This document shows positions 2,751-18,779 of a stretch of 26,192 nt of DNA, piece after piece. The stretch is from Bradyrhizobium sp. CCH5-F6 (GTDB lineage: Bacteria; Pseudomonadota; Alphaproteobacteria; Rhizobiales; Xanthobacteraceae). The translations under genes were made by a program, and so were the position numbers. The notes below the pieces were generated by a model. The model was not told the DNA's origin. It saw only the letters and a list, made by a program, of their open reading frames with translations, and did not search any database. Where the stretch lies: contig NZ_LSIC01000144.1 of the NCBI RefSeq assembly GCF_001556045.1, positions 1-26,192 on the forward strand, read 5' to 3'. How positions within the stretch are numbered: position 1 is the stretch's first letter; each line of letters opens with the position of its first letter.

Positions 2751-3290
2751 CCTAACACTGGGATCATCTGGTTTTCCTCAGAAATCGGGAGCTGCGCCGA
2801 GCCGGTATCACCCGAGCGCGCCGAGTTGGCTCCGGAACAAATAACTTCTTCCATGGGTCCGTAGCGATGTGCAGTCGGAAACGGCATCAGCGGCCATCGG
2901 GCGTGCGTACCCCGAACCAGGAATCCCTGACCTGGTGATAGTGTACTGACAGATCATAGGATTCTGTCGCCAATCCAAGAACGCCAGGAGCGAGCCGGCC
3001 AAGGGCCGCGAGCAGCACGTAGGAGGACGTCACCCGCTCCCGCTGAGTCATGACAAGAGCGATCCGCGCATTCAGCAGCTCCTGCTGAACCGTGAGCAGC
3101 TCGAGCGTACTGCGCTGGCAGGCGCCGAACTTGCGTCGGACGGATTTGAGTGCGAACTCGGCCGCCTTCACCTGAACTTGCGCCGAATCCAACTGCCGCC
3201 CTCGTTGCAGTCACCGCGCTCCAGGCCTGTACGATGGTGGCGCGTGCGAGCTTGCGCACGGCTTCAAGCGACAGCCGGTCATTTCCTTCG
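2675..3290. repeat. Direct repeat copy A (MFS 3' end + tolC 3' end)
   Basis: From the CATGTTCG motif near the end of the MFS gene to about 3290, this stretch matches 3907-4531 in the same orientation. In the first ~215 aligned bases I count about 21 differences, so the duplication is old but unmistakable. Here the MFS end belongs to the complete gene while the tolC end is a fragment; copy B has the opposite arrangement. Confidence 0.9.
2887..3290 (-). pseudogene. tolC-type outer-membrane factor, 3' fragment (duplicate)
   Basis: The minus-strand reading matches the last ~130 residues of the complete TolC homologue at 4119-5513, including the STLELLTVQQELLNARIAL helix and the identical final 12 residues. 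The fragment has no start codon. Relative to the complete copy it carries one extra base near 3190 (frameshift) and an 11-base gap near 3275. It stops abruptly at about 3290, ten bases before the end of fliQ. It is a dead copy created by the duplication. Confidence 0.9.
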
Positions 3291-3906: not shown

Positions 3907-4531
3907 CATGTTCGGCATCGCGAGCGCGCTGGCACTCGCTGGGATGATCATCGCCGCGTGGTTGGCAAAACGGTTGGCATAGCCCAACATCGGGATCAGC
4001 TGGCTTTCCGCGGAAATCGGCAGCTCCGCCGAGCCGGTATCACTCGAGCGCGCCGAATTGGGTCCGGAACAAATAACTTCTCTCACGGGTCCGTAGCGAT
4101 GTGCAGTCGGAAACGGCATCAGCGGCCATCGGGCGTGCGTACCCCGAACCAGGAATCCCTGACTTGGTGATAGTGCACGGACGGATCATAGGATTCTGTC
4201 GGCAATCCGAGAACGTCGGGAGCGAGCCGGCCAATGGCTGCGAGCAGCGCGTAGGAGGACGTCACCCGCTCTCGCTGAGTTAGGACGAGAGCGATCCGCG
4301 CATTCAGCAGCTCTTGCTGAACCGTGAGCAGTTCGAGTGTGCTGCGCTGGCCGGCGCCGAACTCGCGCCGAACGGATTCCAGTGCGAACTCGGCGGCCTT
4401 CACCTGAGCTTGCGCCGAATCCACCTGCGCCCTCGTGGCAGCCACTGTGCTCCACGCCTGCACGACGGTGGCCCGTGCGAGCTTGCGTACGGCTTCAAGC
4501 GACAGTCGTTTCTGACCGGTCATTTCCTTCG
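3907..4531. repeat. Direct repeat copy B (MFS 3' fragment + tolC 3' end)
   Basis: This is the counterpart of 2675-3290. Bases 3907-3980 repeat the last 24 or so codons of the MFS gene including its stop (IASALALAGMIIAAWLAKRLA). This MFS fragment has no start and follows directly on the flgF remnant. The rest repeats the intergenic region and the tolC 3' end, which here belongs to the complete gene. Confidence 0.9.
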
Positions 4532-5513: not shown

Positions 5514-5860
5514 TGAAGCCCCCGGATCGCGATACCGAGCCAGGTCTGCTCCCCGCCCTCCGGCGTCATCCTGCGAGATTACCCAGCCCCCGAATGCGAC
5601 AATAGCGTCTGGACAGGAGATGTGCAAAGCTCGCGCTCTTAGCGTTGGGCGCGCCGTGGGGGAGTTTTTGTCGTTGTCGTGTCGCGCCCCTGCCTTCGGT
5701 GAATGGCTATGGCCATGTTGGGCGTCACCGCCGACGGCCAAGTTTGAATGGAATGCGCAAGCAACGAAGCGTGGGGTCAAACGCGCGCAAAGGGGGCATT
5801 GGCCAAGCCGGACGCGCTACCGATCCATGCGGGTCGGGCGAGTCCTTGAGGTCGTTGATA
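5514..5860. other. Intergenic region between divergent tolC and hupH-like genes
   Basis: There is no gene I can support. The frame open upstream of tolC and the one upstream of the HupH-like start are extensions without ribosome-binding sites. Promoters for both genes should lie here, but I see no clear -35/-10, -24/-12 or FixK-type box. Confidence 0.4.
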
Positions 5861-6322
5861 ATGACTGGCAACAGCAATTTTGTTTCTGATCCAATCATCG
5901 CTGCGCTGCTCTCGGAAGTGAGCGCAAAGTTGGCGGAGATCGTCAAATCGGGGACGACTTTTCGCATCGATCTCCGACGGCTTCCATTGCCTGCAGGCGC
6001 TACCGCTGCGCTGCGCGACTTTCTTGGCAACGGGCAGGTGGAGGCAAGTTTTAGAGGCGTGGGATCATGCATCTTTTCGGAAACGGCCGTGGCCGGCGTG
6101 TGGTGGGGTCAGCAGTACAACACCGACGGTGATCTTGTCGGCGAATTTATCGAAATTGCCTATGTCCCTGAACTACTGAAGTGCGAGACCGCCGAGATTG
6201 AACAGGCCATGAAAGAGCTTTGGCTCAAGATTCGCGACGCTCAGCAGATTCGTGGCAGCGGGTCGGAATCGAGCTCCTCGACCAACCGTTCGCCGCCGAG
6301 CTCCGTTTCCAACACGACGTAA
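5861..6322 (+). CDS. hupH: HupH/HyaF-type hydrogenase expression protein, single C-terminal domain
   Basis: The 153-residue product carries the hallmarks of the HupH C-terminal domain: RRLPLPAGATAALRDFLG (about residues 34-51), a segment with ETAVAGVWWGQQYNTDGD (about 72-89), and FIEIAYVPELLKCETAEI (about 93-110). HupH/HyaF helps assemble or mature [NiFe] hydrogenase, in particular the small subunit; full-length HupH has about 280 residues, so this is a domain-sized version. ATG 5861 has TTGAGG about 11 bases upstream. The gene is transcribed toward the hyp operon, and its last 82 bases overlap the end of hypE on the other strand. The Ser-rich tail (SGSESSSSTNRSPPSS) is encoded there and is probably not a conserved domain. 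Confidence 0.78.
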   Translation: MTGNSNFVSDPIIAALLSEVSAKLAEIVKSGTTFRIDLRRLPLPAGATAALRDFLGNGQVEASFRGVGSCIFSETAVAGVWWGQQYNTDGDLVGEFIEIAYVPELLKCETAEIEQAMKELWLKIRDAQQIRGSGSESSSSTNRSPPSSVSNTT

Positions 6323-7281
6323 GGCCCGTCTTCGCCCACGACGCCGATTTCTGCTGCGTCTTCTCCGCCCGGCAGGTCGCGCCAAGCCTGCACCAGCCGT
6401 TCGGCTGAAGGCGGGTCAGCGACAGCCACGATCCTGCCCTCACAAGCCAGATAGAGCGGATTATAGCCGAGCATATCGCAGACGGCCTGCACCTCACCGC
6501 GCAGCGGAATCTTGCGCTCGAGCAGGCGCACGCTTTTGGCCGTTGATCGAACGATCTCGTGGGCGACGCTTGCCAGTCCGCCGCGGGTCGGGTCGCGCAT
6601 GAATCGGATACCCGGCTGCATTAGGGCGCATCTAGCAAGCGGAAGAACACTGGCGCAGTCCGACTGCAGCGTCCCCGAAAGACCAAATTGCTTGCGGGCC
6701 AGCAGGACGGCCGTTCCATGATCGCCGATCGAGCCGCTGACAATGATGCGGTCGCCGGGGAGGATCTGATCGAGGCCAAGGGCGACGGCAGGGTTGCGAA
6801 ACCCCAGTCCGGTCGTCGCCAGGTAAAGCCCGCCACCCTCGCCGTTGCGGAGGACTTTGGTGTCGCCCGTCACCACCTTGACCGAGGAGGCCCGCGCCGC
6901 GGCGGCCATGGATGCGACCAGGCGCTCGAGGCGCTCCCGTTCGAAGCCCTCTTCGATGAAGCAGTTCAGCGCGATGTAAAGCGGCTCTGCCCCCGACACT
7001 GCGAGGTCATTGACGGTGCCATTGATGGCCAGACTTCCGATGTCGCCACCTGGAAACTCCAGCGGATCCACCGTAAAACCGTCCGAGGTCAGGGCCGGAA
7101 AACTGCCGGCGGGCAGCATCGGTAAGATCGCTGCATCGGCATTTGTATCGAACAGGTCGTTGTGGAGATGTCGGCGGAAGACCCCTTCAATCAGCTCACG
7201 CATCCTTCTGCCGCCATTGCCGTGCGCCAGCGAAATGCGGCTCAGGTCGCGCGAGCAGTGCTTGTCGTCACCAGGTTTCAT
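6241..7281 (-). CDS. hypE: HypE, hydrogenase cyanide-ligand maturation protein
   Basis: The 346-residue protein ends in PRIC. The C-terminal Cys of HypE accepts the carbamoyl group from HypF and is dehydrated in an ATP-dependent step to a thiocyanate that supplies CN to the active-site iron. PurM-like ATP-binding features are present: AHGNGGRRMRELI near the N-terminus, NDLAVSGAEPLYIAL, VVTGDTKVL, and MRDPTRGGLASVAHEI. Length and both ends are normal. Its ATG overlaps the hypF stop (ATGA), indicating translational coupling as the last gene of the operon. The 3' end overlaps the converging hupH-like gene by 82 bp. Confidence 0.97.
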   Translation of the reverse strand: MKPGDDKHCSRDLSRISLAHGNGGRRMRELIEGVFRRHLHNDLFDTNADAAILPMLPAGSFPALTSDGFTVDPLEFPGGDIGSLAINGTVNDLAVSGAEPLYIALNCFIEEGFERERLERLVASMAAAARASSVKVVTGDTKVLRNGEGGGLYLATTGLGFRNPAVALGLDQILPGDRIIVSGSIGDHGTAVLLARKQFGLSGTLQSDCASVLPLARCALMQPGIRFMRDPTRGGLASVAHEIVRSTAKSVRLLERKIPLRGEVQAVCDMLGYNPLYLACEGRIVAVADPPSAERLVQAWRDLPGGEDAAEIGVVGEDGPYVVLETELGGERLVEELDSDPLPRIC

Positions 7282-8654
7282 GGGGCTTTCCGCGCAGAAA
7301 ATTCAACGACCTGGCCATAACTCAGTCCACCGTCATTCATCGGTATGCGTTCATGCAAGAGAACCTGGAAGCCGTGGCTGGTCAGAGCGGCCGCCGCATG
7401 CTCGGTGAGCAGCTTGTTCTGGAACACGCCGCCTGTCAGTCCGATGATATTGGTGCGATTGGCCGCGCCATGATGCAGGGCCTCGCGAACCAGGGTTGCA
7501 GACAACGAACCGTGGAAGCGTCCAAGCCGCTCGCGAACGGACAAGGACGAATCCACGAGCATTGGAACAAGTGGAGTCCAGTCGATCCGCCGGATCTTGC
7601 CTTCGGGGCGGACCGGGAGAGCGGGCTCGATGCTGACTTCACCTGACATGCTCTCAACCAGCGCCGGCGCCTGGCCATCGTAACTGCAGTGCTCGATGAG
7701 GCCCACCATTGCTGCGGCGGCATCGAACAATCGACCGACCGAGCTGGACATCATGCCGGCCCCGGCAGCCCATGCGCGGCGGTAGGCGGCTGCATCCGTA
7801 TGAACGCATTCCCAGTGATGATGGGCCTCCAGCGCCAGCGTGTACGCGCTGCGCCACGGCTCGAGTGCAACGCGGTCGCCGCCGATGAGCCGAAACGGAC
7901 GCAGGCTGCCGACCCTCTGCCAATGTCCGGGCGAGCCGAACAAGGTCTCGCCGCCCCACAAGGTGCCGTCGGACCCAAGCCCCAGACCGTCCCAGGTGAA
8001 GACCAGCATTTTCTCCCTGCAACCATGCTCCCCGGCCAGCGCAGAAGCATGGGCTACATGGTGCTGGATCCCGGTTGTGGGCACGTCTTGCCGCAGGGCC
8101 CACCGTGTCGTCGTGAAATCCGGATGCGCGTCGTGAAGGATGCATGTTGCATCGGTCGCATAAAGTCTTTGAAGATCGTCGGCAACCTGTTCCAGCGTTG
8201 TCTGTGAGCGCAAGGATCCCATGTCCCCAATGTGTGGAGACACGACGACCCGGTCGCCTAGCCCGAGCGCCACCGTGGCCTTGAGTTGCCCTCCGCAGGC
8301 GAGCACGGCGTCAGCCGCCCTATAAGAGTTGTGCAGGGTGATGGGTGCCGAGCCGCGGCCAAGCCTGATCGATCTGGCCCGCCCGCCCATCACCCGCCAG
8401 ACCGGATCGTCGGCAGGGCGCTGGATAGGACGATCATGGTGCAGGAAGGCGTCGCAGCAGCGAGCGAGCCGCTTCTCGGCTTCGTCCGGATCGGTGATCA
8501 CGGGTTCGCCGCTGATGTTGCCGCTCGTTGCGACCAGCACACCAGCAAATTCGCTCAAGATCAGGTGGTGCAAGGGGCTATAGGGCAACATCAACCCGAC
8601 CTCGCCAAGGCCAGGCGCAACGGCGGCCGCACGATGGGCCGAACGGGGTCGCAC
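7278..8654 (-). pseudogene. hypF: hypF, C-terminal part after a frameshift
   Basis: This frame carries the rest of HypF: the end of the YrdC-like domain (APGLGEVGLMLPYSPLHHL, then VATSGNISGEPV) and RPADDPVWRVMGGRARSIRL. Next comes the Kae1-like carbamoyltransferase domain, with the metal-binding HHVAHASALAGEHG and the late GLTGGVFQN and MNDGGLSYGQ. In intact HypF this continues directly from the N-terminal part, but here the two are in different frames. The first codons of this frame (from GTG 8654) spell an unrelated sequence, because the true reading enters near 8621-8633. No ribosome-binding site supports an independent start. The stop overlaps the hypE start (ATGA). Either the gene is broken or one sequence error separates the frames. 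Confidence 0.85.
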
Positions 8655-9517
8655 AGGGCCGCTTCTTCGATTTCATCAAGATCAGCGATCGTTCTGGCAA
8701 ATCGATGCCGGTTGTTGCCGCCCGGCACCATCACGGCAAGCGGCTTGTCAGGCCGTCCCTTCCTGTTGCGAAGCCTGAGCACCGCGGTCTCATTCGTCGC
8801 ATCACATATCAGGTGGTACCCGCCGATACCGCGAACGGCCAGCGTCAGGCCGTAGCTCAAGGCCTCGACAGCGGCGGCAAGCGCTTGTCCGCTGCCGGAG
8901 ATCTCCTCGCCATTCGCTTTCCTGAAGACCAATTTCGGGCCGCATTCGGGACACGCCAAAGGCTGCGCGTGAAACCGGCGGTCCTGCTGGTTCTCAAACT
9001 CGTGCCGGCAGTTTCGGCACAGTTCGAAGCCCGCCATCGAGGTGTTGGGGCGGTCGTAGGGCAGGGCGGTGATAATGGTGTATCGCGGGCCGCATTGGGT
9101 GCAATTGGTGAAAGGATAGCGGTACCTGCGCTCTGATGGATCATCTATCTCGGCGAGACAGTCGTCGCAGAGGAACAAATCGGGCGGAAGCTCCGCATCG
9201 CGGGTCGAACCAGGTTTGCTTTCGAGGATCGAAAATTCGCAACAATCGGCTGGTGGTCGCGGGCTGACCGACCTAATCATCGGCCGCGCCAACGGTGGCC
9301 TTTGGGCGATCAGGCCGGCCGCAAAGCGGTCGAGCGCGTCAGGCTCGCCGCTGGCAAGCACGGACACGTGGCTTGCCTCGTTCTTCACCCAGCCCACGAT
9401 CTCGTGAGCGTCCGCGAGACGCTTCACGAACGGTCGAAATCCGACACCCTGGACACGACCGACGATTTCGAACAGCCGTGTCTCGCTGCGCGTTTCGATG
9501 GTCTCATTCCTGTTCAT
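8591..9517 (-). pseudogene. hypF: hypF, N-terminal part (carbamoyltransferase, frameshifted)
   Basis: HypF converts carbamoyl phosphate and ATP to carbamoyl-AMP and loads HypE. This part holds the acylphosphatase domain (VGRVQGVGFRPFVKRLADA, about residues 19-37). The zinc region has four CxxC pairs (CDDC, CTQC, CRNC, CPEC). The beginning of the YrdC-like domain follows (LAVRGIGGYHLICDATN, then GRPDKPLAVM). After 'DPVRPIV' the frame loses HypF similarity and stops at 8591, giving 308 residues instead of about 750. Compared with E. coli HypF, the linker between 'PIV' and 'APGL' is also several residues short, so a deletion not divisible by three is likely. ATG 9517 overlaps the protease stop (ATGA). 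Confidence 0.88.
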
Positions 9518-10029
9518 CCGGGCACCGAGACCTGATCGGCGCAGATCCATTTGCGAGCCAGGCGCAGCACCAATCCGGCAGCCAACGGCACCGCTGTCGC
9601 GACTCGGTCGCTCAGGCCTTCGCCCCAATCGATGCATTGAGGATGAATACCGATCAGCGCGCGCCGGCGCGGCAGAAGGTCCTCCATCCGGGCCATATCG
9701 AACAGTTCCTTTAGCCCGATCTCGTGCGCGGTATGCTTCGAGGTGCCGAGGAACGCGTCGAGCTCGTCACCAACCAGGCAGCGAACCGCCCCGGCCTCAT
9801 CTCCGATCATCGCAGCATCGATGACGATGAGACGACCGGCGGTCTCAATGATCGGCAGCAGATTGAAGCTCAGCGTCCCGCCGTCGACGATCGCCAGGTT
9901 TGCGCTCGGTTGCGGCCAGTCGCGCAGGTACCGGATCACATGAACGCCTACCCCCTCATCACCGAGGAGCACGTTACCGATGCCTAAGACAGTGACTGGT
10001 GGACCAGCGGCATGCGGTGCGGAAGGCAT
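9514..10029 (-). CDS. hupD: [NiFe]-hydrogenase maturation protease (HupD/HyaD, peptidase M52)
   Basis: The 171-residue protein has the M52 signature: LGIGNVLLGDEGVGVHVI (nickel-binding Glu of GDEG), IVDGGTLSFNLLPIIE, LIVIDAA and a later ALIGIHPQ with the third ligand His. These endoproteases recognise nickel in the nearly finished large subunit and clip its C-terminal peptide after the His/Arg of DPCxxCxxH/R. The substrate in this operon ends in DPCLACAVH plus 15 residues, a fitting target. The gene lies between hypD (6-bp gap) and hypF (ATGA overlap). The symbol could equally be hyaD/hybD/hynC, because the hydrogenase is not a standard Hup type. Confidence 0.93.
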   Translation of the reverse strand: MPSAPHAAGPPVTVLGIGNVLLGDEGVGVHVIRYLRDWPQPSANLAIVDGGTLSFNLLPIIETAGRLIVIDAAMIGDEAGAVRCLVGDELDAFLGTSKHTAHEIGLKELFDMARMEDLLPRRRALIGIHPQCIDWGEGLSDRVATAVPLAAGLVLRLARKWICADQVSVPG

Positions 10030-10035
10030 CGGCGC

Positions 10036-11172
10036 TCACCTTGCTGCGCGGACCGCGCCGCCGCCCCCAAAGGCATGGCGGCCGCTGCGGTAGCCGGCAG
10101 TCCACCACACCTGGCAGGCCCCTTCGTCCGACACCATGCAAGGACCTATCGGCGATTCGGGCGCGCAGCCAGAACCGTACAATCGGCAATCGGTTGGCAG
10201 GACTTTGCCGAGAATGACCCGCGCGCAATCGCAACCTGGTGGCATTTCGCCGCGACGAGGGCGTTCTGTTGCTTCGTCCAACGGAAATTCTATCCTTGCA
10301 TCGTGGTCGGCATATTCGGGCCTGAGGCGGAAACCGGACCGGGGGATGACGCCGATGCCGCGCCAGGCGGCGTCCGTCACCTCCAGGGTTTCGGTAAGAT
10401 AGCGGCGTGCGACGGCGTTGCCGCCGGGCCTGACGCTCTTGGGATAGCAGTTGTCAAGAAAGTACCGGCCTTCGAGCCGTTGCCGAAGCGTCGAATAGGT
10501 GGCTGCCAGCAAGGCGTCAGCCGTGAAGCCCGCGATCGCGGTGGGCATGTGGTGACCGCGAACCACAAACTCCCATTCCTCGGGGCCCATGACGGTTGCG
10601 ACGTGCCCCGGCGCGATCAAAGCATCAAATCCCGGCTCTTCGGACTGAAGGAGCATGGCGACCGCTGGCCATGTCAGCCGCCCGGAAATCAGGAGCTTAA
10701 GATTCGGCGGAAGGCCCATCGCGATCAGCGCCGCGACGGGAGCAAGCGTGGTTTCAAAGCCGGCGACGAAGAAAACCACCGTCTTGCGCGGATTCTCCCT
10801 GGCAATAGCGGCAGCTTCGCTCGGACTCGCGATGGGGCGAACATCCGCGCCGAGCGCGATTGCCTGCTCAAGGGAGCGCGGCTGGGCCTTCGGTCCATTG
10901 ACGGGGACGCGCAGCATATCGCCGAACGCAACCAGGATGACGGAATTTGTCAGCGACAGTTGGATAGCATGGAAGACATCCTCTTCCGGGCAGACGCAAA
11001 CCGGGCATCCGGGTCCCGGAATCAGCTGCACCGCGGGTGGAAGCAGGCTTCTGATGCCTGAGGTCGCAATCGTCCGCTCGTGGCCACCGCAGACGTTGAG
11101 GATTCGAACCGGCCGATCGAGCGGGAGGTCCTTGATCCGGTCCAGCCAAATGCGAGCAGGCGAGCTCATCAA
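10036..11172 (-). CDS. hypD: HypD, Fe(CN)2CO scaffold assembly protein
   Basis: The 378-residue protein shows all HypD hallmarks: LNVCGGHERTIATSGI near residue 26, PGPGCPVCVCPEEDV near 53, the thioredoxin-like core FFVAGFETT, APGHVATVMG, and the C-terminal [4Fe-4S] cysteines in PPGCDCARVILG, TDCRLYGSGC and PIGPCMVSDEGAC. With HypC it holds the iron while CN and CO ligands are attached. The start ATG overlaps the hypB stop (ATGA); a second ATG follows at once. A run of Gly-rich residues at the very end (AFGGGGAVRAAR) is normal variation. Confidence 0.97.
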   Translation of the reverse strand: MMSSPARIWLDRIKDLPLDRPVRILNVCGGHERTIATSGIRSLLPPAVQLIPGPGCPVCVCPEEDVFHAIQLSLTNSVILVAFGDMLRVPVNGPKAQPRSLEQAIALGADVRPIASPSEAAAIARENPRKTVVFFVAGFETTLAPVAALIAMGLPPNLKLLISGRLTWPAVAMLLQSEEPGFDALIAPGHVATVMGPEEWEFVVRGHHMPTAIAGFTADALLAATYSTLRQRLEGRYFLDNCYPKSVRPGGNAVARRYLTETLEVTDAAWRGIGVIPRSGFRLRPEYADHDARIEFPLDEATERPRRGEMPPGCDCARVILGKVLPTDCRLYGSGCAPESPIGPCMVSDEGACQVWWTAGYRSGRHAFGGGGAVRAAR

Positions 11173-11975
11173 GCCTCTCCTGCTTCAACCGAGGTGGTTG
11201 GGTTGAGGAATAGCCCGGCGCGATGATCGGCAAGCCGCTGGCGGAGCCACGCCAGCCATTCGCCCACATCGGCCGACTTGGCAGCCGACGTTCTCAGAAG
11301 CGGACCGTCGTAACCTGATGCCTTGAGCGTTGCTGCTGCTCGATCCACCTGAAAGTTGTCCAGGTACGGCAAAAGATCCGATTTCGTGAGCATCACGAGA
11401 TCGCTCTTGCGGAAGATGATCGGATATTTGGCCGGCTTGTCGTCACCTTCCGTGGCCGACAAGAGCGTAACATTGCAGTGCGCTCCAAGATCGAATGAAG
11501 CGGGGCATACCAGATTGCCCACATTCTCAATGAACAAAACGTCGACGCCGTTCAGATCGAGCTCATGGAGCCCGTGATGCACCATGGTCGCATCGAGATG
11601 ACAGGCGCCGCCGGTCGTAATCTGGAGGGCGGGGACCCCCTTTGCTCGGATCCGGGCAGCATCGTTCTCGGTTTCAAGGTCGCCCTCGATGACGGCGAAA
11701 CCGAGTTCGGGGCCGAGAGCATCAATTGTTGCTTCGAGAAGCGAGGTTTTGCCGGATCCGGGCGAGGACATCAAATTGATCGCAAGCAGACCGCTCTCAT
11801 CGAAATGCTGCCGGTTGTGGCTGGCGATCCGATCGTTGGCGGCGAGAATATTGCGGATCACGCCTTCCTCGTGGGCAAGCCCGTGTACCGACGCAATTGC
11901 GCCATCTTCCGAACCCCTATGTGGCAGATGAAGCCGGTGCTTGTTATTGGCGGCGCAGCCGCAATGGCTACACAT
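11169..11975 (-). CDS. hypB: HypB, nickel-insertion GTPase
   Basis: The 268-residue protein begins with MCSHCGC, the N-terminal high-affinity nickel motif (CxxCGC). The G domain has Walker A SSPGSGKTSLLEA, the IEGDLETENDA switch, metal-site residues in TTGGACHLDATMV and NLVCPASFDLG, and the TKSDLL guanine motif. With HypA it delivers nickel to the large subunit. The long His-rich stretch that stores nickel in some rhizobial HypB proteins is almost absent here (only HRLHLPHRG), so this is a delivery rather than a storage form. It overlaps hypA by 8 bp and hypD by ATGA. Confidence 0.97.
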   Translation of the reverse strand: MCSHCGCAANNKHRLHLPHRGSEDGAIASVHGLAHEEGVIRNILAANDRIASHNRQHFDESGLLAINLMSSPGSGKTSLLEATIDALGPELGFAVIEGDLETENDAARIRAKGVPALQITTGGACHLDATMVHHGLHELDLNGVDVLFIENVGNLVCPASFDLGAHCNVTLLSATEGDDKPAKYPIIFRKSDLVMLTKSDLLPYLDNFQVDRAAATLKASGYDGPLLRTSAAKSADVGEWLAWLRQRLADHRAGLFLNPTTSVEAGEA

Positions 11976-12393
11976 GCGGCGCCTCCCTCTCCGTGTTCAG
12001 TTTCCCTGGTCCGCCGGCTACTGGTGGATCCGAGGTGCCGGGGAAGCCGGTTGCGGCAAATTCGACCGCCGCGCTCGACAATTCGTCGCCGCCGATGACC
12101 TTTACCCGAAATGAACCGCAGAACGCGCAAAGCAAGCGATTGGGACGTGTCACATTTTCCAGGCCGCACTCCGTGCATTTGACACGCGGATCGCAGAGCT
12201 CGATCGTGAGATACGCATGTTCCGCCTTCGTGCCCGAGCGCGCGACCTCGAACGCGCGAAGAAGCAGGCCCGGGTCCGTACCCGAGAGCTCACCGACCCG
12301 GATCGCGATATGCGCAATGCTGTCCTCGCCCGCCTCCTGCGCGAGGCGCTCGACTTCGGAAATCAGAGCCCAGCACACCGAAAGCTCATGCAT
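11968..12393 (-). CDS. hypA: HypA, nickel metallochaperone
   Basis: Starting at ATG 12393 gives 141 residues beginning MHELSVCWALI, where His2 is the HypA nickel ligand. The zinc site is CTECG...CAFCG (about residues 75-94). The reading frame is open further upstream to 12507, but that extension runs opposite to conserved HypC sequence and would bury the required N-terminal MHE, so 12393 is the start. The C-terminus is about 25 residues longer than usual (after 'RVKVIGGDEL'), Gly/Pro-rich and of unknown use. Overlap with hypC is 8 bp. Confidence 0.95.
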   Translation of the reverse strand: MHELSVCWALISEVERLAQEAGEDSIAHIAIRVGELSGTDPGLLLRAFEVARSGTKAEHAYLTIELCDPRVKCTECGLENVTRPNRLLCAFCGSFRVKVIGGDELSSAAVEFAATGFPGTSDPPVAGGPGKLNTEREAPHV

Positions 12394-12628
12394 GCGAGTG
12401 GCTGTCCCCTGCGGCCAGCATGGCGTCGAAGACTTCCCAGGTGGACTTGGCCTCCCGCTCGTCGATGAGCTGGATCGCATAGCCCAGGTGAACCAGGACG
12501 TGGTCACCGACCGAGACGTCCTGGTCCTGTAGCAGGAACAGGTTCACCTCGCGAGAAACGCCCTTGACGGAGCATTGCGCGAGGAATCCGTCGATTCTAT
12601 CCACCCGCATGGGGATGGCGAGGCACAT
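12386..12628 (-). CDS. hypC: HypC, hydrogenase assembly chaperone
   Basis: The 80-residue protein starts MCLAIPMRV; Cys2 is the residue that binds iron during transfer between HypD and the large-subunit precursor. The middle has 'VSVGDHVLVHLGYAIQLID', the standard HypC/HupF OB-fold signature. Length is normal. It follows the cytochrome gene by 17 bp, and GGAGAA lies shortly before the ATG. A dedicated second chaperone (HupF) was not found in the window, so this HypC probably serves the large subunit. Confidence 0.96.
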   Translation of the reverse strand: MCLAIPMRVDRIDGFLAQCSVKGVSREVNLFLLQDQDVSVGDHVLVHLGYAIQLIDEREAKSTWEVFDAMLAAGDSHSHA

Positions 12629-12645: not shown

Positions 12646-13488
12646 CTACGGTGGGATGGAGGCCAGGATCGGTCTGAGCCCCTCGACAAGCCTCTGGCGC
12701 TGTTGATCCGACAGGTTCGCATTGAGGCGCGCAAGCGCGAGCCCAACGGCGCGCATGCTCGCCACGTGTTTGGATGATTGCAGCTCATGAACCTTGAGCA
12801 ACGTCACCGGATCCTTGGTGGCAGCTTCGGCAGGACCGGAAGGACGCTGCAGCGCGCGAGCGGCTGCGTCGAGAAGGTCGAGCCAAGCCGGCTCCTGTGC
12901 CGTCGTGATTCCGACCGCATCATGTAAGGCCGCCATCTTCCGAGACAGCTCCTCGTCTGACGGCGCTGGCTGCGCATCCGCCTTCGGTTGACTCTCGGAG
13001 GGCGCAGTATTGGGTTGCGCGCCCTCCGGCGTCGGCAGAGATGGACTTGGGCCCGGCGGCATACCCATTGGGCTTGTCGAGTTCTCAGAGGCTTCTGCCG
13101 TTGCGCTTTTAGGCCCCGGAGGCAACTTCTCTCCGGGCACGCGCGCCGTTTGGGTGCTATCGGCCCCCCCAGGACAGAAGAAGCCGAAATCGCCGGTTGT
13201 TCGTCCTCTGATGAACTCGTTCCAGTTCGGTTCGATTCGATGTTCGGGAGACGTGTCGAAGGTGCCAAGGTGGTGGCACATCGCGCAATGCGGCTGGTGC
13301 GCGCGGACCCGCAAGCGGCCACGTTCGATGCAATAGTTGTCGATCAAGTCGCCATAGCCATTCCCAGGGCGGGCGAGGACAGGGGACATTTGCCAACCAA
13401 GCAGAGTCAGGACGAATATGGCGACCGATGAGAAGACGCTCCGTCGCCGCTGCCGGTCTTTCCTCGCGGTCTTGTTCGAGTTCAGCAT
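12646..13488 (-). CDS. Monohaem c-type cytochrome-like protein of the hydrogenase operon
   Basis: The 280-residue protein has an Arg-rich N-terminus and one hydrophobic segment (VFSSVAIFVLTLLGW), suggesting export to the periplasm, and one haem c motif, CAMCHH, at about residues 70-75. Two further Cys (in DNYC and FFCPGG) flank it. A Pro/Ser-rich linker (about 110-175) leads to a helical C-terminal domain ending 'LSDQQRQRLVEGLRPIL'. Its start overlaps the large-subunit stop (TAATG), so it is made with the enzyme. I do not recognise a named family. Position and haem suggest it accepts electrons from the small subunit in place of the cytochrome b (HupC/HyaC) of classical uptake hydrogenases. 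This role is inferred. Confidence 0.75.
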   Translation of the reverse strand: MLNSNKTARKDRQRRRSVFSSVAIFVLTLLGWQMSPVLARPGNGYGDLIDNYCIERGRLRVRAHQPHCAMCHHLGTFDTSPEHRIEPNWNEFIRGRTTGDFGFFCPGGADSTQTARVPGEKLPPGPKSATAEASENSTSPMGMPPGPSPSLPTPEGAQPNTAPSESQPKADAQPAPSDEELSRKMAALHDAVGITTAQEPAWLDLLDAAARALQRPSGPAEAATKDPVTLLKVHELQSSKHVASMRAVGLALARLNANLSDQQRQRLVEGLRPILASIPP

Positions 13489-15281
13489 TAGAGCACCTTC
13501 ACGCGAACCAGTTCTTCGCCGTTAGGGTCGACGACATGAACGGCGCAGGCCAGACACGGATCGAAACTGTGGATCGTGCGCAAGATCTCCAAGGGACGGG
13601 AAGCATCCTGTAACTTGTGGCCGCGTAACGCCGCCTCGTAGGGCCCCTCTCGCCCTGCGGCATCGCGGGGGCCGGCATTCCAAGTGCTGGGGACGACGGC
13701 CTGATAGTTGCCGATCCGTCCCTCCTCGATCGTGAGCCAATGAGCCAGTGCGCCGCGAGGCGCTTCCATCATGCCCACGCCGCGGGTTTTCTTCGGCCAG
13801 GTCGTGGGATCGAACAGCACATCATCGAAGGTGCGAAGATCGCCACGCGTGATGTTGGCCATCAGCGCATCGTACATGCCCGGCATCATGTCGGCGATCA
13901 ATTTGGTCTCGATGGTGCGGGCAGCGACGCGGCCGAGCGTAGAGAACAGGGCGGAGATCGGAAGTCCCAACCGTCCGAGGCTGTGGTCGACGAGGCCTCG
14001 CGTCCGCACCTCTCCGCTTGCATAGAGAATCAGAACACGCGCAAGCGGCCCGACTTCGACCGGCAGACCCTTCCATCGAGGCGACTTGATCCATGAATAG
14101 GACTGGTCAATATCGAGCTGCTCGTAAGGGGGCTTCGGTCCCGTATAATCGAGCTTCGTTTCGCCGTCGTAGGGGTGCAAACCGACCTGCTTGCCTGCCG
14201 AATAGCTGTACCAGGAATGGGCGACGAATTCCTGAATCTCGGTCGGATCCTCAAAGTCGACCGGCTGTATCTTCGAAAGGTCCCTGTTGATGATGACCCC
14301 GGCGGGAAACTGCAATGTCGCTCGCTCGGCGGCACCTACCCCGGTCGGAAATTCACCATAGGACAGGAAATTGCCGACGCCTTCGCCTCGCGTTGTCCAG
14401 TCCTTGTAGAATCCGGCGATCGCGAGCGTGTCGGGCAAGTAGACCTGGTCGACGAACTCCCGCATCTTGCTGATGACCTGGCCGACGAGACGCAGATTTT
14501 CTGCATTCACCGCGGTTGCATGCGAGGTTTCAGAAATCGCACAGGGGACACCGCCGACGACAAAATTGGGGTGGGGGTTTTTCCCGCCGAAGATGGCGTG
14601 AATCTTGACCACGTCGCGCTGCCAGGCCAACGCCTCCAGATAGTGCGCGACCGCGAGCAGATTCACCTCCGGCGGAAGTTTGTACTCGGGATGACCCCAG
14701 TACCCATTCGCGAAGATTCCAAGCTGGCCACCCTCCACAAAACCTTTCAACTTCTGCTGAACTCCGCCGAAATACGCCGGCGAGTTGTTCGGCCAAGGGC
14801 TCAAGCTCATCTGCAGTCTGGAAGTCGCGGCCGGATCTGCCTTGAGAGCGGAAACCACGTCGACCCAATCGAGCGCATGCAGATGGTAGAAATGCATGAC
14901 GTGGTCATGCACATATTGCGCGGCAATCATCAGATTGCGGATGAGCTGCGCATTCTCCGGGATCACATAGCCGAGTGCGTATTCGACAGCCCGGATCGAG
15001 GCGATGCTGTGGACGACCGTGCAGACGCCGCAGAAACGCTGTGTAAACGCCCACGCATCCCTGGGATCACGTCCCTTCAGGATCAATTCGATGCCGCGCA
15101 CCATCGTGCCTGAGCTGGATGCGCGGGTGATCACGCCCTGAGCATCCGTCTCCGCTTCGATCCGAAGGTGCCCCTCGATTCGCGTAACGGGGTCGACGAT
15201 GAGCCGCCGAGGCTGCGAGCCGGGCGCGGTCTTGGCCGCAGCCGTGGACTTTTCGCCGGCCTTCTTAGAAGAGCTTGCCAT
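13488..15281 (-). CDS. [NiFe]-hydrogenase large (catalytic) subunit
   Basis: From ATG 15281 the protein has 597 residues. The L1 motif QRFCGVCTVVHS gives the first nickel Cys pair (84, 87). L2, DPCLACAVH, near the C-terminus gives the second pair (576, 579). Fifteen residues follow His582 and should be removed by the operon's protease. Other group 1 hallmarks are DPVTRIEGHLRIE and GGKNPHPNFVVGGVPCAI. The chosen ATG has GAGGG upstream and overlaps the small-subunit gene by 17 bp; an ATG at 15320 is open but lies well inside that gene. The Lys/Ala-rich first 20 residues are unusual. The subunit oxidises H2 at the Ni-Fe(CN)2CO site and is carried to the periplasm with the small subunit. Confidence 0.96.
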   Translation of the reverse strand: MASSSKKAGEKSTAAAKTAPGSQPRRLIVDPVTRIEGHLRIEAETDAQGVITRASSSGTMVRGIELILKGRDPRDAWAFTQRFCGVCTVVHSIASIRAVEYALGYVIPENAQLIRNLMIAAQYVHDHVMHFYHLHALDWVDVVSALKADPAATSRLQMSLSPWPNNSPAYFGGVQQKLKGFVEGGQLGIFANGYWGHPEYKLPPEVNLLAVAHYLEALAWQRDVVKIHAIFGGKNPHPNFVVGGVPCAISETSHATAVNAENLRLVGQVISKMREFVDQVYLPDTLAIAGFYKDWTTRGEGVGNFLSYGEFPTGVGAAERATLQFPAGVIINRDLSKIQPVDFEDPTEIQEFVAHSWYSYSAGKQVGLHPYDGETKLDYTGPKPPYEQLDIDQSYSWIKSPRWKGLPVEVGPLARVLILYASGEVRTRGLVDHSLGRLGLPISALFSTLGRVAARTIETKLIADMMPGMYDALMANITRGDLRTFDDVLFDPTTWPKKTRGVGMMEAPRGALAHWLTIEEGRIGNYQAVVPSTWNAGPRDAAGREGPYEAALRGHKLQDASRPLEILRTIHSFDPCLACAVHVVDPNGEELVRVKVL

Positions 15282-16242
15282 AGAAGCCGCCCTCGCGATC
15301 CCAGAATTTCGGTTGGGCACAGCCGAGGCAGCCGTGGCCCGAGAACATCGGGAAGCTGGTCTTCTGGTTCCACTTCACCGTCGTGCATGCGTTGAACGTC
15401 GTCGGTCCCTTGCAACCAAGATCTTTCAGGCAAAAGCCCTTCTGCGCGCCTTCATCATCAAAGCTCTTGGCGAACAGCCCCTGATTGAAGAAGGGCAGTC
15501 TCGGACAATCGTCGTGAACGGTCCGCCCGAAAAACGGAAGGGGGCGTCCCAGATTGTCGAGATCAGGCGGTTTCCCATACGTGAGAAAATAAACCACAAC
15601 TCCGGTCATCACCTCCGGGATCGGCGGACACCCCGGAACGTTGATGATGGGAGCCGCGACGTCCTTGGCGTCGATGAGCTCGCGCAGGGCATCGTGAACT
15701 CCGCCTGCTCCGGTCGGGTTGGGCGAGGCTGCAGGGATCCCCCCATAAGTGGCGCAAGTGCCGACCGCAATGATGAGCGCCGCTCCTTTTGCTGCACCCC
15801 GCACGAGATCGCGTCCGCTCTTTCCGCCGGTTGTCGAGTAATATCCATCCCGATCAAGCGGAATTCCGCCGTCAACCACAAGCACGTATTTGCCGAAGTT
15901 TTGCTCAATCGCCCTGTCGCGCGCCTGTTCGGCGGCGTTTCCTGCGGCCGCCTGCAGCACATGATGATAGTCGAGAGAGAACTGATCGAACATCAGGCTT
16001 TCGAGCGTCGGCTCGAACGATCGCAGAATCGACTCGCTGCAGCCGGTGCATTCCTGGACGGAGAGCCAGATGACGCTGGGGCGAGGCTTGGTCGCAAGCG
16101 CTTGTGCGATCGCCTGGCTTGCACTCGGCGGGAGGGCAAGAATCGAAGCCGTGTAGGCGCACCAGTTCAAAAAATCGCGCCGCGACACGCCTTGACGGCG
16201 AAGATGGTCCAGCAGCGTTGTATGGTTGTTCCGTGCTTCCAT
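15265..16242 (-). CDS. [NiFe]-hydrogenase small subunit, Tat-exported, no membrane anchor
   Basis: From ATG 16242 (325 residues) a Tat signal is evident: SRRDFLNW with Arg21-Arg22, then a hydrophobic stretch. The proximal cluster motif is ECTGCSES (Cys65, Cys68) with GTCATYGG and PGCPPIPEVM; medial and distal ligands include VHDDC, GFCLKDLGC, NACTTV and HGCLGC. O2-tolerant enzymes have Cys where this one has Gly in both ECTGC and TYGG, so the proximal cluster is the standard [4Fe-4S] type. The chain ends 'REGGFYGKLF' soon after the last cluster, with no C-terminal helix to bind a membrane cytochrome b. GGGGAGG supports 16242; ATG 16263 with AAAGG is an alternative. First gene of the operon. 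Confidence 0.95.
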   Translation of the reverse strand: MEARNNHTTLLDHLRRQGVSRRDFLNWCAYTASILALPPSASQAIAQALATKPRPSVIWLSVQECTGCSESILRSFEPTLESLMFDQFSLDYHHVLQAAAGNAAEQARDRAIEQNFGKYVLVVDGGIPLDRDGYYSTTGGKSGRDLVRGAAKGAALIIAVGTCATYGGIPAASPNPTGAGGVHDALRELIDAKDVAAPIINVPGCPPIPEVMTGVVVYFLTYGKPPDLDNLGRPLPFFGRTVHDDCPRLPFFNQGLFAKSFDDEGAQKGFCLKDLGCKGPTTFNACTTVKWNQKTSFPMFSGHGCLGCAQPKFWDREGGFYGKLF

Positions 16243-16602: not shown

Positions 16603-17055
16603 TCAGATCGGCATGTTCACCATGCCTCTACAATCACGAGCACAGTCACGACAGAGCGAGGCGCAGTGCGCCATTTGATCGTCTCCAGTGATAGCCTCGC
16701 AATCCTTGGCACAGGCGTCGCACAGTTGCGCACAGGCGCCGCAAATCGCTCCGTGCTGCGGCGATCTGCGCATTAGCGAGTTGGCCGTCATCTGGCACAT
16801 CTCGGCGCAGTCGAGCAGCAGCGCCAAATGCGTGGGCGCAACGTGGTCGCCGCCCTTTTCGAAACAATATCGCGCGGTCTCAAGGCACATTTGGTGCGAC
16901 TTGATGCAAATATCGATGCAGCTCTCTCGGGTCATTGGCCCCTGTCCCATGCCCGGCATGCCCATTCCCGACATGCCAGGCGCCTGAGCCCGAGCGATGC
17001 CGCTGGATGCGGCCAACACCAAGCACGATCCCAGAACTTTACGTCGATTCCACAT
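16603..17055 (-). CDS. Csp1-like copper storage protein (Tat-exported, Cys-rich four-helix bundle)
   Basis: The 150-residue protein opens with a twin-arginine signal (MWNRRKVLGSCLVLAASSG...ARA) and a Met/Gly-rich linker. It then has 15 Cys spaced as CxxxC or i,i+3/4 pairs along predicted helices (SCIDICIKSHQMC, YCFEK, LDCAEMC, ICGACAQLCDACAKDC, HCASLCRDCARDC). This matches the four-helix-bundle copper storage family (Csp/DUF326), whose members load many Cu(I) ions inside the bundle. The Tat signal points to the exported Csp1 type rather than cytosolic Csp3. AGGAGA precedes ATG 17055 at good spacing. It lies 51 bp behind the LOG-family gene and may share its transcript. Copper binding is inferred from the family. 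Confidence 0.88.
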   Translation of the reverse strand: MWNRRKVLGSCLVLAASSGIARAQAPGMSGMGMPGMGQGPMTRESCIDICIKSHQMCLETARYCFEKGGDHVAPTHLALLLDCAEMCQMTANSLMRRSPQHGAICGACAQLCDACAKDCEAITGDDQMAHCASLCRDCARDCRGMVNMPI

Positions 17056-17106
17056 GACTAAATCTCCTGTCCTAATCGTAAGAGCGGCTAATGGGATGCC
17101 TAACGC

Positions 17107-18006
17107 CTACTCGGACCTAGGTGAGGGGCGGGCGACTGTCGCGGCCGAAGTTGGCGATTGGCCATCGAGCAGGTGACGGTAACGCGACGCCGCGCACGAC
17201 AGTCCAGGCACGTCCAACCCGCAAGACAGCAACTTATTCCAAATCTCCTCGGCATTTTCGGCAAAACGAAACAGCGTGCAGTCCGACTTGTCGACGGTGC
17301 CACTGGCGATCAGCGCATCGAAGTTGACCGCCGCGCGCCAGTACTTCTCGTCAAACAGGACGATCGGGATTGGCGGCGACTTTCCGGTCTGACGGAGCGT
17401 GAGAATTTCAAAGAGTTCGTCGAACGTGCCAAAGCCGCCGGGAAAGGCGACCAAGGCGTTGGCGCGCATTGCCAAATGCATCTTGCGCATCGCAAAATAG
17501 TGGAATTGGAAGGTCAGTTCGGGAGTCGAGTAACCGTTTGGCGCTTGCTCCCGCGGAAGTCTGATATTGAAGCCGATCGAGGGGGCGCCAGCGTCGTGCG
17601 CGCCGCGATTGGCCGCTTCCATCAAGCCGGGACCGCCGCCGGTCGCAATCACGTTGTCGCGCACGCCGCCATTGTCGGTCAGCGCGCCGCCACGTTGCGA
17701 CGCTATCAACCCGAATTGGCGAGCTTGTTCATACCAGTCGGCGTGTCTTCCCTGCCCGTTCTGTCGAACGCGCGCTGATCCAAAGACCACGATGGTCGAT
17801 CGTACGCCCCAGTTGCGCAACGCTTCTTCGGCCTTCGCGTATTCGAGCAGAAACCGCACGCCGCGCATCGAATCGCCCAACAAGAAGTCTTGGTCGAGGG
17901 CGGGCAGGATGTACGATGCTGAGCTCTGCGCTGCGCCGGCTGCCGCAGCCTCGCGGTGCGAACCGTGGTCGGACAGGAGCCTTTGCGAGAAATTATCGTC
18001 GGTCAT
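17107..18006 (-). CDS. LOG-family protein (Rossmann-fold nucleoside 5'-monophosphate phosphoribohydrolase)
   Basis: The 299-residue protein has both LOG signatures: GGGPGLMEAANRGA (about residues 124-137) and PGGFGTFDELFE (about 190-201). Family members cleave AMP-like nucleotides to base and ribose 5-phosphate; in plants and some bacteria the substrate is cytokinin riboside monophosphate. At about 300 residues it belongs to the longer bacterial branch, with an N-terminal extension (about 1-75) before the Rossmann core, so a cytokinin role should not be assumed. No strong ribosome-binding site is visible before ATG 18006. The gene stands between the Met/His-rich gene and the Csp-like gene, all on the minus strand. 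Confidence 0.88.
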   Translation of the reverse strand: MTDDNFSQRLLSDHGSHREAAAAGAAQSSASYILPALDQDFLLGDSMRGVRFLLEYAKAEEALRNWGVRSTIVVFGSARVRQNGQGRHADWYEQARQFGLIASQRGGALTDNGGVRDNVIATGGGPGLMEAANRGAHDAGAPSIGFNIRLPREQAPNGYSTPELTFQFHYFAMRKMHLAMRANALVAFPGGFGTFDELFEILTLRQTGKSPPIPIVLFDEKYWRAAVNFDALIASGTVDKSDCTLFRFAENAEEIWNKLLSCGLDVPGLSCAASRYRHLLDGQSPTSAATVARPSPRSE

Positions 18007-18022
18007 TGTGGCTGCTTTCGCC

Positions 18023-18056
18023 CCGGCCCGTCTCGGGTTTCGCCGAGACAGGCCGG
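18023..18056 (-). terminator. Strong hairpin between the Met/His-rich gene and the LOG gene
   Basis: CCGGCC-c-GTCTCGG (18023-18036) pairs with CCGAGAC-a-GGCCGG (18043-18056): 13 base pairs with one mismatch and a 6-base loop. It sits in the 60-bp gap after the Met/His-rich gene. There is no T tract, so it may be an attenuator or mRNA-stability hairpin rather than a full terminator. Confidence 0.5.
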
Positions 18057-18066
18057 AGCCGATGCG

Positions 18067-18558
18067 CTATTTGCAGCCGGAGTTCTGGGTCGTCTGGGTT
18101 TGGGTCTGCCCCGGTCCGCAGGGGGGAGTCCCCATCTGGCCATGCTCCATGTTCTTCTCATTCTGCATCATCTTCTGGCCCTGGTCCCGCATCATGCGGC
18201 CGTGCTCCATGCCTTGCGGCGTGGAAGTGGTTCCGGTCGTCTGTTGATCGGTTGCTGTCCCTGGCTGGCCGGGCTGAGCTTGCGTGGTCGACGGCTGATT
18301 GCCAGTCTGGGACTGGCCGTTGTGCATCATTTTCTGACCCTGGTCGCGCATCATGCGACCGTGCTCCATGCCCTGCATCGGCATGGAATTGGTCCCAGTG
18401 TTCGGTTGGTCGGTCGCTGCCCCCGAGGACTGGCCGGGTTGGGCTTGGGTCGGTTGGGTGCCGGTCTGTTGGGACTGAGCCAGTGCGGCGCCAAAGGAGA
18501 GAGCGATCGTTGCGGCGATGGCTGCAGGGATTGCGATCTTCGAGAAGTGGTTTGACAT
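18067..18558 (-). CDS. Secreted Met/His/Gln-rich protein with two internal repeats
   Basis: From ATG 18558 (GGGAAA upstream) the product has 163 residues. A signal peptide (IAIPAAIAATIALSFGAALAQ) is followed by two tandem units of roughly 50 residues. Each unit has a Gln/Thr/Pro-rich part (QPTQAQPGQSSGAATDQ; QPSTTQAQPGQPGTATDQ) and the near-identical block GMEHGRMMRDQGQKMM. A short tail has 'MEHGQMGTPPCGPG'. The Met/His clusters recall periplasmic copper-binding proteins, and a Csp-like gene lies downstream, but I do not recognise a defined family. A FixK-like box is centred 88 bp upstream. The other possible start, ATG 18576, would precede the signal peptide by only six residues. Confidence 0.75.
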   Translation of the reverse strand: MSNHFSKIAIPAAIAATIALSFGAALAQSQQTGTQPTQAQPGQSSGAATDQPNTGTNSMPMQGMEHGRMMRDQGQKMMHNGQSQTGNQPSTTQAQPGQPGTATDQQTTGTTSTPQGMEHGRMMRDQGQKMMQNEKNMEHGQMGTPPCGPGQTQTQTTQNSGCK

Positions 18559-18639
18559 GGTGATTTCCCTATTCATGAATTGAGGGGGCCGACGGCCCTG
18601 GAGCGAATTGAAGGTTAGAGCGGCTCGCGCCCACCCAGG

Positions 18640-18653
18640 TTGATCTAACTCAA
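18640..18653. promoter_or_regulatory. FixK/FNR-type palindrome
   Basis: TTGATCTAACTCAA (TTGA-N6-TCAA) lies in the gap between divergent genes, centred 88 bp before the Met/His-rich gene start (18558) and about 133 bp before the VTT gene (18780). The distance to 18558 is typical for activation at a class II site with a 40-50 base leader. Confidence 0.65.
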
Positions 18654-18779
18654 CAAGGGATCGTGACAAATCTGTAACAAGTTCCACGCTTGGATTGGCG
18701 AAGAGCGTTCGAATGCGAGCATCGAAAACTGCTCTGAACTGATGCGGTCAGCGACGAAATCTGAAGGATATTTTGCATC

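Follow-up and report, generated by a model that had tools for sequence, protein, structure and literature searches.

A putative haem c protein encoded beside an anchorless Isp-type [NiFe]-hydrogenase without Isp1/Isp2 in Bradyrhizobium sp. CCH5-F6

How does a hydrogenase that lacks both a membrane anchor and a cytochrome b partner gene pass on the electrons that it takes from H2? The question is raised by an operon on contig NZ_LSIC01000144.1 of Bradyrhizobium sp. CCH5-F6 (assembly GCF_001556045.1), which we analysed over a stretch of 26,192 nucleotides (hereafter the window). An original prediction made from this sequence described a soluble periplasmic uptake hydrogenase paired with a dedicated haem c protein instead of cytochrome b. 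Our analysis places the enzyme among the periplasmic uptake [NiFe]-hydrogenases of the Isp-type (group 1e-like) clade, as a derived member. To judge from sequence, the 280-amino-acid (280-aa) protein encoded directly after its large subunit is probably a single-haem electron acceptor of the hydrogenase, and a linked module of a 7-haem cytochrome, a five-helix membrane protein and a reductase would be the likeliest onward route. We give this reading as a whole a probability of about 0.5.

The small subunit (S) carries the twin-arginine motif SRRDF together with ECTGC and GTCATYGG, and the large subunit (L) carries RFCGVC and DPCLACAVH. S ends in ...GHGCLGCAQPKFWDREGGFYGKLF-stop, only 11 residues past its last cluster motif, as the original prediction had it, coordinates included. 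In addition, no hupC-like gene was matched at E<=0.01 in the window or around five related operons, in a search that covered the stretches fetched around the operons rather than whole genomes and that used three HupC-type proteins and E. coli HybB as queries; the HupC controls find each other, and the absence of a hupC/hyaC-like gene stands. Both positions at which other enzymes carry an extra Cys near the proximal cluster are Gly in S (ECTGC, TYGG), which also bears out the original description, whereas the four classical enzymes compared (E. coli Hya, C. necator Hox, R. leguminosarum Hup and the chromosomal Hup of BTAi1) have ECTCC and SWGC. Membership of HupSLC was rejected on three grounds, namely the separate clade in the trees of L and of S+L, the lack of a HupC-type match and the Gly residues at the extra-Cys positions; the difference from HupSLC that had been predicted, which includes the missing anchor, is thus confirmed.

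The large-subunit phylogeny suggested with the original prediction, made here as our own tree rather than with the HydDB classifier, gave a clear placement. In a 43-row tree of L (L119, L121 and L030 were too short and were excluded), the six-row clade of the window (support 100/100) was nested among A. vinosum and Isp-type loci in a set of 22 rows (99/98), and in a 25-row tree of S+L the window clade fell inside a 21-row set (100/100) as against the four classical enzymes. The closest chains in the PDB were likewise those of A. vinosum, 3MYR_A for S and 3MYR_B for L. We compared 26 relatives with 64-71% identity in L, counting one locus per genome (16 loci, Methylovirgula and 9 of 14 other L matches; of these 14, G640 was already within the 16 and four were left out), 9 of them viewed with a flank of about 1.5 kb only. 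isp1 and/or isp2 were found in 24 of the 26, and in the two relatives where no isp gene was seen (L118, L129) the contig end lies 181 and 426 bases from the start of L. The window, where S and L adjoin, gave no match to Isp1 or Isp2, and neither did any of the five operon-bearing genomes (G001-G005, their loci located via the 280-aa protein), with the control G166 positive. The tails of S differed as well: past the last cluster motif there are 11 residues in the window and 54-64 in the 10 readable tails of Isp-type loci. Of the 27 loci of this survey, the tail was unreadable in 7 although both genes were found (L005, L120, L121, L009, L030, L034, L050), and S was not found in 4 (L056, L118, L119, L129). 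Four of five scored tails, from Isp-type loci or Methylovirgula (L055, L117, L122, L141), reached a hydropathy of 1.43-2.32 over 19 residues; the long tail with a hydrophobic stretch is an Isp-type trait as seen here and not a published rule.

Clade position, the lack of an Isp match and the 11-residue tail together indicate that the window enzyme has the core of an Isp-type hydrogenase but neither the Isp pair nor the tail. A standard Isp operon was rejected given the short S tail, the adjacency of S and L and the isp genes of 24/26 relatives. The trees and the approximately unbiased (AU) tests leave room for one loss of the pair as well as for two; placing all 16 Isp-type rows in one clade was only marginally rejected (p 0.04). 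PMC11018855 describes isp1 and isp2 as lying between S and L and states that this position had been believed to be constant. The place of isp2 was a different one in six Isp-type loci: it comes after L in L056, L123, L195, L199 and L200 and precedes S in L141, and in all six isp1 lies between S and L or ends directly before L. Furthermore, G166 encodes a second hydrogenase (L057, 6513-10909) whose tailed small subunit has DCAGN in place of ECTGC; a maturation protease gene and a PF00034 cytochrome c gene adjoin it, and a COX2-type oxidase gene lies on the same contig, which makes it another hydrogenase beside a c-type cytochrome.

The start of the 280-aa gene and the stop of L share TAATG, the overlap described originally, and the order S-L-280aa recurs in 5/5 loci. 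The protein has a hydrophobic segment at residues 21-39 followed by an invariant A39-R40, and is predicted to be exported. Its sole CxxCH, the CAMCH at residues 68-72, is invariant in 20/20 aligned members, as are the cysteines C53, C68, C71 and C105; a chance CxxCH was discarded on the strength of this invariance. Identity of 19 relatives to the window protein ranged over 69-100% in the N-domain, 13-100% in the linker and 26-100% in the C-domain, and the lower floors of the last two mark the CxxCH domain as the constrained part. This highly conserved N-domain matches no Pfam family, and no Pfam cytochrome family was matched at E<=1 by any of the 20 members, in keeping with the original description of a cytochrome-like family that was not recognised. 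The helical C-terminal domain can now be named, as it is an LTXXQ domain (PF07813, Spy/CpxP-type), matched at E<=1 in 20/20 members (best 3e-12) and, in the window protein, at 25.1 bits against a gathering score of 24.3. A sequence search of the PDB returned two designed proteins (E 0.87-0.88) and nothing else.

CxxCH in an export-type protein is a general substrate of cytochrome c maturation. This usual fate argues against an alternative in which the 280-aa protein is no electron carrier but has a periplasmic metal-handling, thiol or assembly role, its Cys and His residues binding metal or forming disulfides and its LTXXQ domain being a metal-responsive or chaperone domain. The four invariant cysteines and the LTXXQ match of every member would suit such a role, as would the copper-type genes near the BTAi1 operon and the best structural match of the whole model, the metal sensor CnrX, which was non-significant (E 0.16; Foldseek found no match at E<=0.001). 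However, the most conserved part of the protein is the CxxCH domain and not the LTXXQ domain, and Isp-type operons, whose enzyme core is the same, have no 280-aa protein. We consider this alternative unlikely.

The family is rare, with 19 clusters among 5.8 billion proteins, and genomes of 84,980 species yielded 5 loci with the 280-aa gene; the latter scan used two short peptide patterns, so that diverged members may escape it. Searches based on L are an independent but small test of the co-occurrence of S-L and the 280-aa protein. Among 391 family genomes, matches above 80% came from G002 and G005 only, both with the 280-aa protein, and among 279 order genomes (E<=1e-225) G002 matched at 95%, with 66-70% for the remaining 14. 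None of the 26 relatives described above has a 280-aa protein (0/26). Homologous operons without the cytochrome-like gene, whose existence would have told against the original prediction, therefore do occur, but outside the clade only. The N-domain itself was found in 16 of 25 candidates of similar length, all family members, and among short proteins in two fragments, a partial Pseudomonas-labelled protein and a 68-aa protein. The partial protein (P0020; 107 aa with the CxxCH N-domain), whose contig of 449 bases bears the label Pseudomonas sp. EL_65y_Pfl2_R96, is possibly a contamination. In 289 class genomes the N-domain was matched in G002, with 7 further, marginal hits (E 0.0028-0.0076). 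Of 397 order genomes 35 match the model A1, and among the 38 matches listed the N-domain is covered by the operon copy of G002 alone, while the rest begin at model position 106 or higher. Among the titles and abstract openings listed, a coverage that mostly leaves aside subscription journals, no description of the 280-aa protein was found. PMC3899966 places Hup/Hyp uptake hydrogenases within the BTAi1-specific gene set and cites there the pBTAi1 paper (Cytryn 2008).

If S-L is a soluble enzyme exported by the twin-arginine translocation (Tat) system, then the exported 280-aa protein, with one covalent haem c on its N-domain, could take electrons from the distal cluster of S, and its LTXXQ domain, on a flexible Pro-rich tether, could dock it to further periplasmic partners. 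The likeliest onward route would be a linked module. It is made up of a c3-like cytochrome that carries seven CxxCH, a five-helix membrane protein in which His is conserved, and a 2Fe-2S/FAD/NAD-binding reductase. By this route the electrons of H2 would cross the membrane to NAD(P)+ or to the respiratory chain. We treat the module as a lead. Its genes lie on the contig of the operon in 5/5 operon-bearing genomes, at about 6.0 (G001), 9.7 (G002), 6.4 (G003), 9.1 (G004) and 2.4 kb (G005) from the nearer of S and hypE; they fall outside the window, beyond whose left end synteny with G001 would place them. The original phrase "instead of cytochrome b" consequently holds in so far as there is no HupC-like gene, and is weakened in so far as a b-type-like five-helix protein is encoded 2.4-9.7 kb away in 5/5 genomes. 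In BTAi1 the module homologues are on the plasmid of the operon with a Spy/CpxP LTXXQ protein in front, and the C-domain of the 280-aa protein gave a profile match to this Spy-like protein (probability 96%, E 1.9e-9). The five-helix gene is present in more than one copy in four of the five operon-bearing genomes, all except G002 (L172, L178, L179, L180; L146 20103-22257), and some of the copies are preceded by a Spy-like gene. In the operon-free genomes G030, G091 and G110 an LTXXQ gene matching A1 lies about 3 kb from the 7-haem gene.

A second alternative accepts the 280-aa protein as a haem c acceptor but passes its electrons to a general pool of periplasmic cytochrome c and to a terminal oxidase; the module would be unrelated and co-located only via metal-resistance islands. 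TolC, MFS and OsmC genes do separate the operon from the module in window-type loci, genes for a multicopper oxidase and for CopB occur close to the operon in BTAi1, and, according to PMC4781885, metal resistance and hydrogenase are found together on the Alteromonas plasmid pAM1A3. Moreover, the 7-haem protein (E<=1e-20) was found in 6 of 198 family genomes, two operon-positive and four without the operon. Against this, the module accompanies the operon on its contig in 5/5 cases as compared with its presence in 4 of 196 operon-negative family genomes; the Fisher test within the family, with only two operon-positive genomes, gave p 7.7e-4, uncorrected for relatedness or genome choice. In another class the module also adjoins an anchorless hydrogenase, HynSL. 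A full-length 7-haem match was absent from all 16 Isp-type genomes (0/16), many of them drafts (p 4.9e-5 for module versus Isp type, likewise uncorrected); weak partial multihaem matches were seen in 4 of these 16 (best E 1.1e-7). We judge a general pool improbable, at around a chance in five.

The HynSL in question is encoded on plasmids of Alteromonas macleodii and Glaciecola, with homologous module genes upstream. No match to Isp1, Isp2 or the CxxCH N-domain was found in the 17.8-kb Alteromonas/Glaciecola stretches, and PMC4307346 regards the short tail of the HynSL small subunit as unlikely to be an anchor. The Alteromonas and window enzymes stand apart in the best trees, and AU tests did not reject a single clade (p 0.106 and 0.152). 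The Gly pair is present in HynSL too. According to PMC3701524 this enzyme is without a native 4Fe-3S cluster, and its O2 tolerance is reported as partial or modest in that paper and in PMC4307346, the latter calling it modest. Because of this tolerance the Gly pair is no proof of O2 sensitivity, and the sensitivity that had been predicted from it is unsafe.

Several observations weigh against the reading that we favour. Four of the six module-bearing family genomes (G030, G091, G110, G192) lack this operon, and module and operon may share metal-resistance islands only. As for a cytochrome b partner encoded elsewhere, which the original prediction named as telling against itself, the linked module supplies one in part, and the pairing is not exclusive, four of six module genomes being without the hydrogenase. 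The five-helix protein, b-type-like, has no Pfam match and is annotated as an "iron reductase" in BTAi1. BLASTP with the C-domain alone found no similarity to the Spy-like protein of BTAi1. AlphaFold gave no confident model of the N-domain, with a predicted local distance difference test (pLDDT) score of 58 for the whole protein and 51 for the N-domain alone; the C-domain alone was confident in the whole-protein model. Lastly, PMC3102683 reports that Orf1 and Cyt of the Alteromonas operon are unneeded for maximal HynSL activity in E. coli. From the gene order we read Orf1 and Cyt as the membrane and cytochrome genes of the module, and those activity assays presumably used an artificial electron donor, like the methyl-viologen assay of PMC4307346.

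The operon runs on the minus strand from 16242 to 6241 in the order S, L, 280-aa protein, hypC, hypA, hypB, hypD, protease, hypF and hypE, and is followed by a gene on the opposite strand:

15265..16242, minus: hydrogenase small subunit S (TIGR00391 over cut-off; Tat signal, no C-terminal anchor)
GTG 15320 or ATG 15281 to 13488, minus: hydrogenase large subunit L (PF00374, 766 bits)
12646..13488, minus: 280-aa protein with export-type N-terminus, CxxCH N-domain, Pro-rich linker and LTXXQ C-domain (20-member alignment; PF07813)
12386..12628, minus: hypC (TIGR00074 over cut-off)
11968..12393, minus, within a longer open frame 11968-12507: hypA (TIGR00100 at 68 bits, below the cut-off of 88.1; operon position)
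11169..11975, minus: hypB (TIGR00073 over cut-off)
10036..11172, minus: hypD (TIGR00075 over cut-off)
9514..10029, minus: hydrogenase maturation protease (PF01750 over cut-off)
7278..9637, minus: hypF in two overlapping open frames (TIGR00143 positions 2-273 and 283-738, one per frame)
6241..7281, minus: hypE (PF00586 and PF02769 over cut-off; the operon's HypE by synteny with BTAi1)
5852..6322, plus, directly past hypE: HupH-like gene (PF04809, 84 bits, over cut-off)

The HupH-like gene shares 55% identity with the BTAi1 gene at 5894-6232. The split of hypF (window 7278-9766) is either a sequencing error or a young pseudogene. It fits a third alternative, in which the Isp-type hydrogenase has decayed or become redundant and makes use of a membrane partner, HupC or another, that belongs to a classical hydrogenase of the same cell; G001, G003 and G004 do contain classical hydrogenase genes as well, and S of G005, a metagenome-assembled genome, has one in-frame stop in that assembly. 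On the other hand, HypF is one open frame in L001, L002, L003 and L006, this hydrogenase is the sole PF00374 match in G002 and G005, and S has no C-terminal helix for a HupC-type contact, nor do the five genomes have an Isp1/Isp2 match. Decay with a borrowed partner is, in our view, very improbable.

Upstream of S (window 16603-18687) lie genes for a Cys-rich 150-aa protein with an export-type N-terminus, for a lysine-decarboxylase-like (LOG-type) protein and for a Met-rich protein, the first and the last without a Pfam match; we take these genes to resemble copper handling. Relatives of the Cys-rich 150-aa gene lie near the operon in L001, L002, L003 and L006. Beyond hypE, a partial direct duplication (2675-3277 versus 3907-4508), with pieces of 300 nt (91%) and 81 nt (88%) spaced by about 1.23 kb, takes in the MFS and TolC genes at their 3' ends, and a similar second TolC piece is present in L002.

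If the favoured reading, namely a derived Isp-type core with a haem-carrying 280-aa acceptor and the module as its likeliest route, is true, the membrane end of an Isp-type hydrogenase would be exchangeable, the core being kept while anchor, Isp1 and Isp2 are swapped for a soluble haem relay. It would also define a new family of CxxCH domains whose partner can be tested, offer a function for the multihaem module of plasmid islands and mean that plasmid operons like that of BTAi1 are not to be read as ordinary Hup. A wider and doubtful extension sees here a new way out for the electrons of a [NiFe]-hydrogenase. Isp1 and Isp2 would have given way, perhaps on two occasions, to a periplasmic relay, diffusible or tethered, that ends in a transmembrane chain (7-haem c, b-type-like membrane protein, FAD/2Fe-2S reductase) and lets the periplasmic oxidation of H2 reduce cytoplasmic NAD(P)+ directly. 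The adaptor in Bradyrhizobium relatives would be the 280-aa protein, as a new single-haem family joined to the type of LTXXQ domain that the module has too.

Compared with known systems, the window enzyme is closest, in the sequence of both subunits and in the trees, to the Isp-type hydrogenases (HydDB group 1e; A. vinosum 3MYR, Thiocapsa hynS-isp1-isp2-hynL), and A. vinosum 3MYR has the same Gly pair. It differs from them in having adjacent S and L genes without isp1, isp2 or the long S tail, and in the added CxxCH/LTXXQ protein. Classical rhizobial HupSLC (group 1d type) is also a Tat-exported uptake enzyme and has the same slot for a partner gene after S and L, whereas the window enzyme belongs to a different clade and has neither HupC nor the C-terminal anchor nor the extra Cys. 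Alteromonas/Glaciecola HynSL resembles the window-type operon in the adjacency of S and L and in the module homologues alongside; its L is only 58% identical to that of the window, and a gene for a 71-aa protein lies between L and hypC where the window operon has the 280-aa gene. Spy/CpxP-type LTXXQ proteins (PF07813) share the C-domain, and in the searches made here the CxxCH domain fused to it occurred in the 280-aa family alone. In Desulfovibrio a soluble periplasmic [NiFe]-hydrogenase works with cytochrome c3, an analogy in working only, as an anchorless enzyme with a c-type acceptor, the 280-aa protein having one CxxCH and not four.

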